A stretch of DNA of 37,721 bases from Chitinophaga pinensis (GTDB taxonomy: Bacteria > Bacteroidota > Bacteroidia > Flavobacteriales_D > Crocinitomicaceae), in assembly GCA_945902745.1 (NCBI GenBank), contig CAMDNE010000025.1:1-37721 (forward strand), read 5' to 3'. Shown in pieces: positions 32,786 to 37,721 of the stretch. Made by a program: the position numbers and the translations under genes. The notes beneath the pieces were generated by a model. It saw only the letters and a program-made list of their open reading frames with translations. It was not told the origin of the DNA and ran no database searches. How positions within the stretch are numbered: position 1 is the first letter of the stretch; every line of letters begins with the position of its first letter.

Positions 32786-34090
32786 TTATTGAATAATATT
32801 AAGCAGTTCCACTTCAAAAATTAAAGTTGAGTTGGCGGGAATTCCAGAAGCCCCCTCTGGTCCGTAAGCTAATTCTGAAGGAATTGTGAATACTACTTTA
32901 TCGCCAACATTTATCAGAGCAATACCTTCGTCCCAACCTTTAATTACTTTGCCTTCACCAACAGTAAAAGAATAAGGAGTACCTCTTTTGTAGGAGCTCC
33001 CAAACTCCTTTCCATCTGTCAGCTTGCCGATGAAATGAACTGTTACTTTATCTCCTGCTTTTACACGTGTACCCTCACCAATTTCAGTAAACATGTATTG
33101 CAATCCCGACTTGGTGGTGTAGGTTTTATTCACTGTTACGTTTCTTTTTTTCTCAAAAGAGTTGTTTTTTTGAGTACTTTTTTTTGAAAAGGCATCAAGG
33201 TCTGTTATTTCTATAGTAGAAGTCTCTATTTTTGGTTTGTAAACTTTAGAATCCACTGCTGCCAAATTCAAATGATCCTTCATACTTACTATACTGTCCT
33301 TAACTTCAGGTGTTTCAACAAGAAAATAGGCTTTTTCATACATGGTAAGTGCCTCCTGCCAATTTCCTTGCTTCGCTAATAAATCTGCTTGGCTTTTTAA
33401 AGAAACATATTTATCATGTGTAGCGGGATCAATAGTTTCATCTGTATTCTCATTGCTAAATGCGAAAAAGAGAATTACAATAACAATTATGCCGCTTACA
33501 ATAGAAACAGGTAAAATCCATTTTTTCTTTGAAGCTGAACTATCTTTTGAAATTTGTTGAGTTGTTGGTGTGGTTTTTACAATCGGTGCAGTTACAAAAA
33601 TATGATCTTTAAGAAGCTTGTTTGCTGAATTACATTCTATAATAGCTTCTTCATATCCTTTTTTTATTGATGTTGTAGCGGCGTTATCTCTCCCATTTTC
33701 AAAACCAGATACTTTAGTTTTAAATGCTTTATCCAACTCTTTAGCTCTGAATTTCTCACCCAACCCTAAAATTTGAAGTGCTTTTTCTTTAGACATTTCA
33801 GCTTGATTAGAAACAGATGATTTAGCGCTTTTTTCTGTTTCAACAACCTCAGATACGCTAATTCCAGGAAGTTCTTGCGTGTTGCTTTCCAGGTTTTCTC
33901 CACCTAAAACTTCAAATGCTGCCGCGAGTTCTTCCAATTTTTTCTGGTACATCTTCCGTTGGTGCTCTGTTGGTGCATTGGTAATACGCATTTGGAACTC
34001 ATTGTAGAATTCTTGGTATTGTGTATTAATCTCTGAAGATGTTGCTCCTTCTTCGAGCTCAAGTTTGGATAATGCTTCTGTTTTATTCAT
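32786..34090 (-). CDS. J-like/TM/TPR protein with C-terminal FKBP prolyl isomerase
   Basis: A 434-residue protein from the ATG at 34088-34090. Two J-like segments lie at about 1-65 and 88-165 (E-A-L-S-K-L-E-L-E-E-G-A, then K-A-L-Q-I-L-G-L-G-E-K); neither has His-Pro-Asp. A membrane helix follows at about 190-210 (I-L-P-V-S-I-V-S-G-I-I-V-I-V-I-L-F-F-A-F), then a TPR-like unit (Y-V-S-L-K-S-Q-A-D-L-L-A-K-Q-G-N-W-Q-E-A-L). Residues 320-434 are an FKBP domain (V-H-F-I-G-K-L-T-D-G-K-E-F, then V-I-K-G-W-D-E-G, then P-S-E-L-A-Y-G, then L-I-F-E-V-E-L). The domain should sit outside the cytoplasm. Its start is 2 bp after the stop of the upstream paralogue, so the genes are translationally coupled. Confidence 0.9.
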   Translation of the reverse strand: MNKTEALSKLELEEGATSSEINTQYQEFYNEFQMRITNAPTEHQRKMYQKKLEELAAAFEVLGGENLESNTQELPGISVSEVVETEKSAKSSVSNQAEMSKEKALQILGLGEKFRAKELDKAFKTKVSGFENGRDNAATTSIKKGYEEAIIECNSANKLLKDHIFVTAPIVKTTPTTQQISKDSSASKKKWILPVSIVSGIIVIVILFFAFSNENTDETIDPATHDKYVSLKSQADLLAKQGNWQEALTMYEKAYFLVETPEVKDSIVSMKDHLNLAAVDSKVYKPKIETSTIEITDLDAFSKKSTQKNNSFEKKRNVTVNKTYTTKSGLQYMFTEIGEGTRVKAGDKVTVHFIGKLTDGKEFGSSYKRGTPYSFTVGEGKVIKGWDEGIALINVGDKVVFTIPSELAYGPEGASGIPANSTLIFEVELLNIIQ

Positions 34091-34092
34091 AA

Positions 34093-35481
34093 TTATGGGC
34101 AATCTTTAATGCAATTTCCTTTTTTATCAATATGTATATATTTGTAATTTCCAAGATCAACTTTAGCTAGGCCATCTTCATAGTCATAAGCCCAAGTGTA
34201 CATTAAAGGAATAACAACTTTCCCATTTTTATTAACAAATCCCCATTTTTCATTTAATTTAACTCGAGCCAAGTCTTCGTGAAATTCCATTCCCCTAGAA
34301 AAAAAATTATCAAAATCATATACTAAAGGAACGACAACTTCTCCTTTGGTATTTATGAATCCACATTTATTATTTATACAAACATAAGCCAATCCATTAT
34401 CAAAAGCGTATGCCTCATTATACTTAAAAGGTATGACAATTTCACCAGCTTTATTAACATAACCGTAATTATAATCTTCTGTATGTACTTTTCTTAACCC
34501 GTTAATATATGGTTCACTATATAGAGATGAATATTCAATTTTAGGTTGTTTATTTGTGGTATTAGATTTTTCTTCAAACTCTTTTTTCTTACCGTTATTT
34601 GAAGCTTCTTTTTGTTGATCAACAACGGTTTTTATTTTATTTGACGTTAAACGTAATTGATTCCCCATACTTGCAATACTGTCTTTAACATCAGGTGTTT
34701 CAACAAGCGAAAACGCTTTTTCATATTTGGAAAGTGCCTCTGCCCAATTTCCTTGCTTCGCTAATAAATCTGCTTGGCTTTTTAAAGAAACATATTTATC
34801 ATGTGTAGCGGGATCGATGTGTTCATCTGTGTTTGAACTCCCATTCACAAATGCAAAAAAGATAATTACAACGATTATTACCCCACTTACAATTGAAACT
34901 GGCAAACCCCATTTTTTCTTTGTAGCTGAATTATCCTTTGAAGTCTGAATAGATGGCCTTGCATCTTTCACTATAGGTGGAGCGATGAATATATAATCTT
35001 TAAGCAAATTATAAGCAGAATTACATTCTATTATAGCTTCTTCATATGCATTTAGTATTGAGTCGTTGATAGCATTATCCCTTCCTGTTTCACAAGTTGA
35101 AACTTTGGTTTGAAAAGCATTTTCTAATTCTTTAGATGTGAATTTCTCGCCCATCCCTAAAATCTGAAGTGCTTTTTCTTTAGACATTGTCAATTGGCTT
35201 GAAACTTTCAATTTAACATGTTTTTCTGTCTCTACATTCTCAGATTCAGAAATTCCAGGTAATTCTTGTGTATTACTTTCTGCATTTTCACCACCCAAAA
35301 CTTTAAACGCTTCTGATAGTTCTTCCAATTTTTTCTGATACAACTTTCGTTGGTGCTCCGTTGGTGCATTGGTAATGCGCATTTGGAACTCATTATAGAA
35401 TTCTTTGTATTGCGTATTAATCTCTGAAGATGTTGCACCTTCTTCGATTTCTAATTTTGATAATGCTTCGTCGTGGGTCAT
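34093..35481 (-). CDS. J-like/TM/TPR protein with C-terminal WG repeats
   Basis: A 462-residue protein from the ATG at 35479-35481 (M-T-H-D-E-A-L-S-K-L-E); the upstream in-frame start at 35595 adds 38 residues not found in paralogues. The N-terminal 250 residues match the FKBP paralogue: two J-like segments without His-Pro-Asp, a membrane helix (L-P-V-S-I-V-S-G-V-I-I-V-V-I-I-F-F-A-F) and a TPR-like unit. After a Lys/Asn-rich linker the C-terminal 130 residues are four WG-type repeats (Y-G-Y-V-N-K-A-G-E-I-V-I-P, then C-G-F-I-N-T-K-G-E-V-V-V-P, then W-G-F-V-N-K-N-G-K-V-V-I-P, then a weaker one). WG repeats form beta-propeller-like binding surfaces. It is the middle gene of the array. Confidence 0.9.
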   Translation of the reverse strand: MTHDEALSKLEIEEGATSSEINTQYKEFYNEFQMRITNAPTEHQRKLYQKKLEELSEAFKVLGGENAESNTQELPGISESENVETEKHVKLKVSSQLTMSKEKALQILGMGEKFTSKELENAFQTKVSTCETGRDNAINDSILNAYEEAIIECNSAYNLLKDYIFIAPPIVKDARPSIQTSKDNSATKKKWGLPVSIVSGVIIVVIIFFAFVNGSSNTDEHIDPATHDKYVSLKSQADLLAKQGNWAEALSKYEKAFSLVETPDVKDSIASMGNQLRLTSNKIKTVVDQQKEASNNGKKKEFEEKSNTTNKQPKIEYSSLYSEPYINGLRKVHTEDYNYGYVNKAGEIVIPFKYNEAYAFDNGLAYVCINNKCGFINTKGEVVVPLVYDFDNFFSRGMEFHEDLARVKLNEKWGFVNKNGKVVIPLMYTWAYDYEDGLAKVDLGNYKYIHIDKKGNCIKDCP

Positions 35482-35566
35482 TGGGCTTGGTATTGATCGG
35501 ATAAAAGTATTTAATTTTAACGAACGTATAACGATTTGGTTTGGTACTGTAACTTTGGAGAAATCG

Positions 35567-35586
35567 ACCGCTCCGCGGTTAACCGC
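35567..35586. promoter_or_regulatory. GC-rich palindrome just past the DUF1566 gene with the variable end
   Basis: GCGGTTAACCGC (35575-35586) is a perfect 12-bp palindrome that can also form a four-base-loop hairpin; overlapping it, ACCGC-TCC-GCGGT (35567-35579) forms another. It lies 35 bp past the stop codon (35621-35623), in the place where diversity-generating retroelements carry a hairpin after the variable region. No T run follows, so it is not a standard terminator. Confidence 0.5.
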
Positions 35587-35620
35587 CCATATCAATTAAA
35601 ATAGTTAAATGGTTAAATGG

Positions 35621-36931
35621 TTAAAAAGCCCGAACTGCACGAACATAGTACGTGATGGACTTAAAGTCGCCGAACTGGGAACCAGTGCTGAAATTCTGGT
35701 CCCACGCGTTGCCGTTGCCGTACTCCGTACTACTCCAATAGTAGTTATTAGCAAAGCCGCCAACATTACCTATGCTTGATCCTTGCCCAATATTTATGTA
35801 CATTGAGTTCAATTGATCTTTAGACGGTAAATACCAGTCTGAATAGCCGTTTAATGTTAAGTTTGGGCATGCTGATTTCGCCTCTTCCCACTTAAATTCA
35901 CCTTGATCTTTTGGCGCACAAACCAAACCATGTTCACCACTTGCATCAATTTTAAAAACTATTCCTCCCGCGTAATTGTCTCCAATTTTAATCCGTTTAC
36001 TTTCTTTTTCCTTTGGTAAACGTTCAGTCTCTTTCAAGGTATTTTCACTTGCCACAGGTTCTTTTCTAGCATTAGAAACTTCTTTTTCTTTTAACACCAA
36101 AAGCAATTGATTTTTCATGCTTACTATACTGTCTTTCACTTCGGAGGTCTCGGCAAGAAGAAAAACTGCTTCATATTTATCAACCGCGTCTTTCCAATTT
36201 CCCAGTTTAGCCAATAAATCTGCTTCAGCTTTTAGTTTTACATATTCAATATTCGCAGTGGAATCAGTAATTTCATCTGTTTTTGAATTCATATTTGAGA
36301 AGGCAAAAAAGAGAATGACTACAATTGTTACCCCGCTTAAAATTGAAACAGGTAAAACCCACTTCCTCTTTGATTTGGAAGGATCCTTTGAAACTTGTGG
36401 AGTTGTCGGTGTGGTTTTTAAAACTGGTGCAGGTACAAAAACAAACAGTTTTAATAAGGCATGAGCAGCGTTACATTCTAACAACGACTCTGTATAAGCA
36501 CTTCGAATTACATCATTCATTGCATTGTCACGACCAGTTTCACAGGATGAAACTTTGCTTCTAAAAGCACTCTCCAACTCCTTAGCTGTGAATATCTCAC
36601 CTAGTCCCAAAATCTGAAGTGCTTTTTGTTTAGACATTTCAGCTTGATTAGAAGCAGATGATTTAGCGCGATTTTCTGTTTCAACAACCTCAGATTCGGC
36701 AATTCCAGGTAATTCTTGCGTGTTACTTTCCGGATTTTCTCCTCCTAAAACTTCAAAGGCTGCCGCGAGTTCTTCCAATTTTTTCTGATACAACTTTCGC
36801 TGGTGTTCTGTTGGTGCATTGGTAATACGCATTTGGAACTCGTTGTAGAATTCTTGGTATTGCGTATTAATCTCTGAAGATGTTGCTCCTTGTTCGAGCT
36901 CAAGTTTGGATAATGCTTCGTCGTGGGTCAT
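35621..36931 (-). CDS. J-like/TM/TPR protein with C-terminal DUF1566 (C-type-lectin-like) domain
   Basis: A 436-residue protein. The N-terminal 270 residues repeat the family plan: J-like segments at about 1-65 and 86-165, a membrane helix near 190-212 (L-P-V-S-I-L-S-G-V-T-I-V-V-I-L-F-F-A-F) and a TPR-like unit. The C-terminal 125 residues are a DUF1566 domain: G-G-I-V-F-K-I-D, H-G-L-V-C-A-P-K-D, G-Y-S-D-W-Y-L-P-S-K-D-Q-L, Y-Y-W-S-S-T-E-Y and the end Y-V-R-A-V-R-A-F. DUF1566 is a lectin-like fold and a known target of diversity-generating retroelements. The last 35 codons have the marks of such a variable region (see the separate entry). Stop codon region 35604-35623 has three GTTAAAT-type repeats. 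Confidence 0.92.
   Translation of the reverse strand: MTHDEALSKLELEQGATSSEINTQYQEFYNEFQMRITNAPTEHQRKLYQKKLEELAAAFEVLGGENPESNTQELPGIAESEVVETENRAKSSASNQAEMSKQKALQILGLGEIFTAKELESAFRSKVSSCETGRDNAMNDVIRSAYTESLLECNAAHALLKLFVFVPAPVLKTTPTTPQVSKDPSKSKRKWVLPVSILSGVTIVVILFFAFSNMNSKTDEITDSTANIEYVKLKAEADLLAKLGNWKDAVDKYEAVFLLAETSEVKDSIVSMKNQLLLVLKEKEVSNARKEPVASENTLKETERLPKEKESKRIKIGDNYAGGIVFKIDASGEHGLVCAPKDQGEFKWEEAKSACPNLTLNGYSDWYLPSKDQLNSMYINIGQGSSIGNVGGFANNYYWSSTEYGNGNAWDQNFSTGSQFGDFKSITYYVRAVRAF
35642..35746 (-). other. candidate diversity-generating-retroelement variable region
   Basis: In the last 35 codons about 16 codons end in C at positions that vary against the paralogue (TAC, ATC, TCC, GAC, GGC, TTC, TCC, AGC, GAC, AAC, GGC, AAC, GGC, TAC, TAC, AAC). 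This is the product expected from AAC template codons mutated at both adenines. The framework codons keep the genome's mixed third base. G+C is about 50%, against about one third around it. The segment ends at G-T-T-C-G-T-G-C-A-G-T-T-C-G-G-G-C-T and stop, as initiation-of-homing sequences do. Confidence 0.6.
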
Positions 36932-37049
36932 TGAGTTGGTGTTAATTGGATAAAGGTACTTGATAATGTCGAAATTTATTCATTTTAGTTTGGGCAAAAT
37001 TGTGAAAAAAATGACCATTTATTTCGTTAAACGAGTTTTCGATTAACAT

Positions 37050-37721
37050 CTAAAATGCCCGGATTGCACGAGCAGAATATTCGTACCACTGATTGTAGCT
37101 AGTTTTGATTCCATTGTTAAAATTCAATTGCCATGCATTGCTGTTACCAACCTCCGAAGAACTCCAATAGCCACTTTCAGCAAAACCACCAACATTACCT
37201 ATACTAGATCCTTGTCCAACGTTATCACACATTAAAATCAATTCATCAAAAGAAGGCAAATACCAATCTGAAAATCCATTTAAATTTAAATTTTGACAAG
37301 ATGTTTTTGCCTCCTTAAACATATACAAACCTCTTTGATCTTTTGGTGCGCAAACCAAACCATGTATTCCCTTTGCGTCAATTTTAAAGACTATACCACC
37401 TTCGTACACATCCCCAATTTTGATGCGTTTACTTTCAGCTTCCTTTTCTCTTTCTGCATTTAACAAATGATTCTTCATACTTAATATGCTATCATTAACG
37501 TCAGATGTTTTATCAAGGGTATGTGCTTTATTATATTTGGAAAGTGCCTCTACCCAATTTCCTTGCTTAGCTAATAAATCTGCTTGGCTTTTTAAAGAAA
37601 CATATTTATCATGTGTAGCGGGATCGATGTGTTCATCTGTGTTTGAACTCCCATTCCCAAATGCAAAAAAGAGAATTAATACTATTATTACCCCACTTAC
37701 AATTGAAACAGGTAAAACCCA
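37050..37721 (-). CDS. J-like/TM/TPR-DUF1566 paralogue, 5' part cut off by the window edge
   Basis: The frame is open from the window edge to the stop at 37050-37052 (223 residues seen); an internal ATG at 37478 is not the true start. Visible parts are the membrane helix (W-V-L-P-V-S-I-V-S-G-V-I-I-V-L-I-L-F-F-A-F), the TPR-like unit (Y-V-S-L-K-S-Q-A-D-L-L-A-K-Q-G-N-W-V-E-A-L) and a DUF1566 domain of the same length as that of the gene at 35621. It ends S-A-R-A-I-R-A-F. Between the two, differences cluster in the last 45 residues. This copy's end has normal AT-rich codons and no GC-rich palindrome downstream, so it is probably not an active diversification target. The 118-bp spacer to the next gene shows nothing else. 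Confidence 0.9.
   Translation of the reverse strand, partial: WVLPVSIVSGVIIVLILFFAFGNGSSNTDEHIDPATHDKYVSLKSQADLLAKQGNWVEALSKYNKAHTLDKTSDVNDSILSMKNHLLNAEREKEAESKRIKIGDVYEGGIVFKIDAKGIHGLVCAPKDQRGLYMFKEAKTSCQNLNLNGFSDWYLPSFDELILMCDNVGQGSSIGNVGGFAESGYWSSSEVGNSNAWQLNFNNGIKTSYNQWYEYSARAIRAF

Follow-up and report, generated by a model that had tools for sequence, protein, structure and literature searches.

The tail of a presumed membrane-anchored protein in the window (the whole stretch of 37,721 nucleotides that was analyzed) is very probably a variable region (VR) of a diversity-generating retroelement (DGR) that lacks its driver, that is, a remote target stranded after the DGR itself decayed (positions 35624 to 35764). 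The target gene (35621 to 36931, minus strand) is an intact open reading frame (ORF) of 436 amino acids, comprising a J-like N terminus, a presumed membrane helix, and a C-terminal Lcl_C domain, formerly named DUF1566 (PF07603; residues 342 to 434; 35630 to 35908, minus strand; E 1.7e-14), in agreement with the DUF1566 identity proposed in an initial annotation of this DNA. The VR takes up the gene's final ∼47 codons and hence the end of Lcl_C, which would place it at the 3′ end of a lectin-like domain, as expected of a DGR VR. Among solved chains, HbP1 is closest in sequence to the tail domain (8q4e, E 2e-15); structure models (mean pLDDT of 45.6 and 43.5) were too poor to show the fold of the tail. 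Codons of the NNC type are packed at the end of the gene, with 16 in the last 40 codons versus 47 in the first 380 (Fisher p 4e-5), and the GC fraction is 0.50 in the 120-base block that contains most of the VR compared to 0.29 to 0.42 in the 11 other blocks. Both the codon packing and the rise in G+C to about 50% had been pointed out in the initial annotation, and both were borne out.

Because the genome of the window (G000, a 3.46-Mb assembly in 54 contigs, completeness 99.85%) holds only a truncated template repeat (TR), the VR was tested against TRs from relatives. When 240 genomes of the taxonomic family were searched for the bAvd family, 60 had a match, 11 of them above the cut-off, and nine stretches around bAvd matches were taken from seven genomes. 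In three of these genomes (G046, G030, and G208), a target, bAvd, a TR, and a reverse transcriptase (RT) with the motif GLPIGNLTSQ stand in a row. The TR of G046, NDNNNAWKQNFNNGNQNNNNKNNNNYVR, aligns without a gap to 141 bases of the window VR (minus strand), which is changed at 24 of the 52 A sites and at 10 of the 89 other sites. In the positive control, the G046 VR versus the G046 TR, changes affect 24/52 A sites and 2/89 others; in the negative control, the neighboring paralogue at 37050, they affect 23/52 and 20/89. When seven TRs were combined over 120 columns (G046, G208, G133, G030, and loci L164, L166, and L168), the window VR departed from every one of them at 20/40 all-A columns, 1/59 no-A columns, and 1/21 mixed columns (p 5e-9), compared to 17/40, 10/59, and 4/21 for the paralogue (p 0.005); these Fisher values assume that sites are independent, and the choice of TRs followed their likeness to the VR, so that the values serve as a guide only. 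With eight TRs, the window VR was changed at 19/37 A columns versus 0/47 non-A columns. Changes thus fall mainly at template adenines. Judged by this pattern, by the DUF1566 class, and by the stem-loop that follows the gene, the tail is a DGR-made VR, and the DGR signature claimed for it at the outset is upheld by the seven-TR test and the stem-loop.

The paralogue (37050 to 37721, minus strand) has the N-terminal anchor and an Lcl_C tail (E 1.5e-11) and is cut by the end of the contig. Its candidacy as a second VR is not supported, given the changes at 10/59 non-A columns and the lack of a stem-loop after the gene; in the eight-TR scoring, it shows 8 non-A changes (p 0.03). The initial annotation had placed the variable codons exactly where the target differs from this paralogue, with the framework kept. 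That holds in part, but the paralogue also departs from the TRs at framework codons (6/20 versus 1/20 in the target gene), which makes it a poor reference, and the case is therefore carried by the TRs of relatives.

The exact parent TR of the window VR was not found, and the seven-TR fit requires two types of TR. The AGT-AGT framework codons of the VR are present in the TR of a DGR in a Chitinophagaceae bin (L166, 1645 to 2400), and most of the other framework codons are of the G046 type. One exact 41-base TR pattern occurs at 6 loci in genome_contigs, and the viral contigs yielded no matching TR with the same pattern. In a Flavobacteriales bin (L165, 1022 to 2165), the target ORF stops just ahead of the VR, so that the target frame looks broken there.

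The stem-loop behind the window VR, ACCGC-GGA-GCGGT (35567 to 35579, minus strand), has a 5-bp stem and a 3-nt loop; it is the GC-rich palindrome that had been described 35 bases after the stop codon and in fact starts 41 bases past it. Its 17-base form, ACCGCGRAGCGGTCGAT, occurs at three sites in the assembly, behind both VRs of contig C1 (see below) and behind the window VR, and the reversed control pattern does not occur in this genome. In the 25 other genomes of the genus, the pattern was found at two sites, one behind the VR of G021 and one in G016. In the latter (L170, about 1500 from its minus-strand start), comparison by eye indicates that a gene like that upstream of targets runs directly into the stem-loop, which looks like a scar, as if the target had been excised together with the VR. 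Among 29 VR-like tails from the fetched loci (eight TR-like rows excluded), a comparable stem-loop was present within 120 bases in only 13. As single-stranded DNA, the window copy folds no better than shuffled sequences (z −0.43), and copies in L120, L124, and L030 fold somewhat or clearly better (z −2.87, −1.36, and −3.28, respectively). In Bordetella phage BPP-1, a structure behind the VR is required for retrohoming (PMC3240598), and both that DGR and the window locus combine a GC-rich stem-loop behind the VR with adenine-directed change. However, the BPP-1-type stems are 7 to 10 bp long with 4-nt GRNA loops (PMC3240598), compared to 5 bp and 3-nt GGA or GAA loops here. A conserved element does follow the VR; it falls short of the BPP-1 type in length, and its folding energy is unexceptional.

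Elsewhere in the genome, a DGR survives in pieces. On contig C1 (420 kb), two collagen-repeat proteins with Lcl_C tails ending in VRs are followed by an intact bAvd gene (C1, 220757 to 221101; PF22296, 84.2 bits, cut-off 40) and then by a TR-like stub, which resembles the TR of G046 up to the point where it breaks off, the 3′ part being lost. The next large gene, at the place of the RT in G046, encodes an AAA/DUF4143 protein. Both the stub and the expected RT site lie in the interior of the contig, away from its ends. The stub differs from the window VR at 11/31 A sites and 8/59 non-A sites, and the latter differences rule it out, in its present form, as the direct parent. No other TR was detected in the genome by DNA, family, or protein searches.

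The SQ motif marks DGR RTs, as is the case for the RTs of the G046, G030, and G208 loci. With the RT of G046 as the query (E 0.01), no match was obtained in the genome of the window, and the RT family PF00078 identified two RTs, both on C1, with the motifs QGSPSSP and QGAPTSP. The best matches of these two were retron models, below the NCBIfam curated cut-offs; the pair (L028, 9275 to 10957, and L029, 4634 to 5746) lies close to the end of C1, at a spacing of ∼10 kb, possibly in a defense region. Over the genus, PF00078 gave 24 matches in 16 of the 26 genomes, and none shows the SQ motif, which rules them out as DGR RTs. Seventeen carry a G-x-x-x-S-P motif and two QGSPxSG; the rest are two matches in G002 and one each in G011, G007, and G019, the last a fragment without the SQ region. 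In the 25 further species of the genus, a weak match to G007 (E 6.8e-9, 30% identity) was the only one obtained with the G046 RT query; it carries GLPIGISASK without the DGR-type SQ. The G002 matches (L036 and L051), which resemble eukaryotic LINE elements, and the G011 match (L043), presumably a Ty3-type retroelement, therefore probably reflect contamination of these bins. By both searches, then, no DGR-type RT was found in this genome or in the 25 further species. The initial annotation had proposed a driver elsewhere in the genome, to be sought as a near-copy template and a DGR-type RT. A DGR locus with bAvd and a TR stub does exist on C1, but its TR is cut short and fits poorly, and an RT is missing, so that a working driver is unsupported; this outcome largely tells against an active system, and the TRs of relatives nonetheless show that the signature is genuine.

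The same decay is visible in relatives. The sister species G021 has a VR and a bAvd gene cut to 68 codons; its 20-kb stretch contains neither a TR nor an RT, and PF00078 has no match genome-wide. Altogether, the related genomes form a graded series, from an intact DGR through a truncated TR and a shortened bAvd to a bare stem-loop scar. DNA similar to the window VR (E 0.001) was detected in 31 of the 240 family genomes, including 7 from this genus, in a survey that scored at most three candidates per genome, included several matches shorter than 60 bases, and covered many incomplete genomes. The DGR RT query matched 14 of the 240 genomes (E 1e-10). Six genomes are common to both lists; 25 of the 31 VR carriers have no RT match, as do 13 of the 18 among high-quality genomes. 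Some of the RTs are themselves in pieces: two adjoining parts in L123 (G133), 39 residues with 92% identity on C10 of G191, and 34 residues on C28 of G053. When 19 ungapped 39-codon tails from the fetched loci were scored against the eight TRs, at most 1/47 non-A changes were found in six tails whose genomes gave no RT match (that of the window, one of the two VRs on C1, and those of G014, G025, G146, and G049). The tails of G005, G225, G202, and G215, and two further tails of G014, show 4 to 10 non-A changes and might be worn VRs.

The protein that carries the window VR belongs to a family seen, among the 240 genomes searched, in this one alone. Defined by its first 250 residues, the anchor family has 11 whole or partial copies on contigs C25, C17, and C46 (window, 32786 to 37721; L031, 3 to 6227; L032, 3 to 5103). 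No relatives were found in the 239 other family genomes (E 1e-5) or, with two narrow peptide patterns, in genome_contigs. As the initial annotation had noted, the target sits in an array of paralogues with other tails: FKBP (32786 to 34090, minus strand; Pfam FKBP_C), WG repeats (34093 to 35481, minus strand; Pfam WG_beta_rep), both recognized as paralogues by N-terminal alignment, and the second Lcl_C protein. On C17 and C46, the tails are WG-like, judged from sequence alone. A pair of J-like domains had also been proposed for the anchor. Its first unit (residues 10 to 63; 36743 to 36904, minus strand) gives a subthreshold DnaJ match in 6/6 paralogues (15.6 bits in the target protein against a cut-off of 27.8; best E among the six, 0.0059), short of a J-domain assignment, and no support was found for the second; DnaJ is the Pfam family matched by most anchor copies, each time under the cut-off. 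The presumed membrane helix (residues 191 to 211; 36299 to 36361, minus strand) was read by eye from the translation, and the KSKRK ahead of it suggests that the N terminus is cytoplasmic and that the tail, which may bind an outside ligand, points outward. Long invariant stretches of the N terminus across six aligned copies suggest gene conversion or strong constraint. The right edge of the window (37721) is also the end of the contig, and the final 149 bases of the contig (37573 to 37721) are identical to the first 149 bases of C17; the array therefore probably continues there. The ORFs in the first 12 of the 61.5 kb of C17 are anchor paralogues, with no DGR part, and the remainder was covered by the genome-wide RT and TR searches. 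The suggestion that the driver lies beyond the right edge is thus unsupported.

In the explanation that we favor, a past DGR would have copied an adenine-rich template into the Lcl_C domain by mutagenic retrohoming, randomizing AAC/AAT codons and sparing framework codons, and the stem-loop past the stop codon would have belonged to the target site. Only later, once the variation had arisen, would the RT and some of the template have been lost; with RT and TR gone, the membrane-anchored protein would now carry the VR as a lectin-like sequence that is inherited in fixed form. The shortened bAvd of G021 and the stem-loop scar of G016 count in favor of a lost driver. Counted against it are the poor fit of the C1 stub (8/59), the A bias of the paralogue (17/40 versus 10/59), the stem-loop found at 13/29 tails, and its z value of −0.43.

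The randomization may have occurred in the target gene or before the VR reached it. Under the second course, which is nested in the lost-driver explanation and which we regard as possible but the less likely of the two, VR and stem-loop came together by recombination from an already diversified target, and retrohoming never took place in the target gene. The genome has no parent TR, the VR with its stem-loop resembles those of G014 (79% identity over 198 query bases) and G208 (75% over 207), and the neighboring paralogue has a related Lcl_C domain and no stem-loop, all of which would fit such a transfer. However, in 30-base blocks, identity between the gene and the paralogue declines gradually, with no single sharp breakpoint, and retrohoming onto remote targets is known, as described in PMC8144416.

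The VR might still be varied by an active DGR acting in trans, with RT and TR on a plasmid, in a prophage, or in some other unassembled part of the genome. An RT could be absent from this draft assembly of 54 contigs; the C1 bAvd is intact, as are the frame, framework, and stem-loop of the window VR. Against this stand the completeness of the assembly, the searches that returned neither an RT nor another TR, and the position of the TR stub and RT site well inside a 420-kb contig, and we consider continued activity improbable. Ordinary divergence on an exposed face of the Lcl_C domain, which the excess of changes at TR-A columns in the non-VR paralogue might suggest, is very hard to reconcile with a framework changed at 1/59 columns in the target gene versus 10/59 in the paralogue, with a stem-loop tied to VRs in this genome, and with the same pattern in the cis VR/TR pairs of relatives.

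Stranded DGR targets of this kind are already known, since they have been described in Treponema denticola. Isolates without RT and TR keep target genes there, with VRs in which most differences from relatives' TRs affect adenines, and these genes are called likely leftovers of lost systems (PMC4891356). The window VR, likewise lacking an RT and differing from relatives' TRs mostly at adenines, is similar, but the T. denticola cases concern strains of one species and ours concerns species across a family; furthermore, the anchor and the array are different, and this genome retains a DGR stub with bAvd. DUF1566 is the commonest Pfam domain among the DGR targets compiled in PMC4159848, and the DUF1566/Lcl_C targets of gut bacteria share the domain and the C-terminal VR with the window protein, which is unlike them in its unnamed J-like membrane anchor and missing driver (PMC4159848, PMC6642488). 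Among the matches listed, the nearest named phage RTs to a DGR RT of the family (P0003) are those of Bacteroides uniformis phages F2 and F4 and Bacteroides phage Bacuni_F1 (40 to 43% identity); these DGRs are phage-borne, whereas the family loci examined are on bacterial contigs. A literature search whose scope left out most subscription papers found neither a relic VR on an anchor of this kind nor a tally, across a family, of VR carriers that lack an RT. What is new here is the anchor, seen in 1 of 240 family genomes, and the frequency of VR carriers without an RT match (25/31).

Thus, the genome seems to keep only broken DGR pieces, and the tail looks like a fixed relic rather than a live hypervariable region. 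These findings carry the warning that a VR-like codon pattern alone is no proof of an active DGR. They present the remnant of a dead hypermutation system, in which a randomized binding surface stays in the genome, and the graded series in relatives makes it possible to ask whether frozen VRs are then kept by selection. We tentatively suggest that in this family DGR-made VRs outlive and outnumber RTs, and that the VR with its stem-loop might act as a small lectin cassette that is randomized, frozen, and handed to host-specific anchors. If so, DGRs would be short-lived evolutionary makers of new fixed binding domains.
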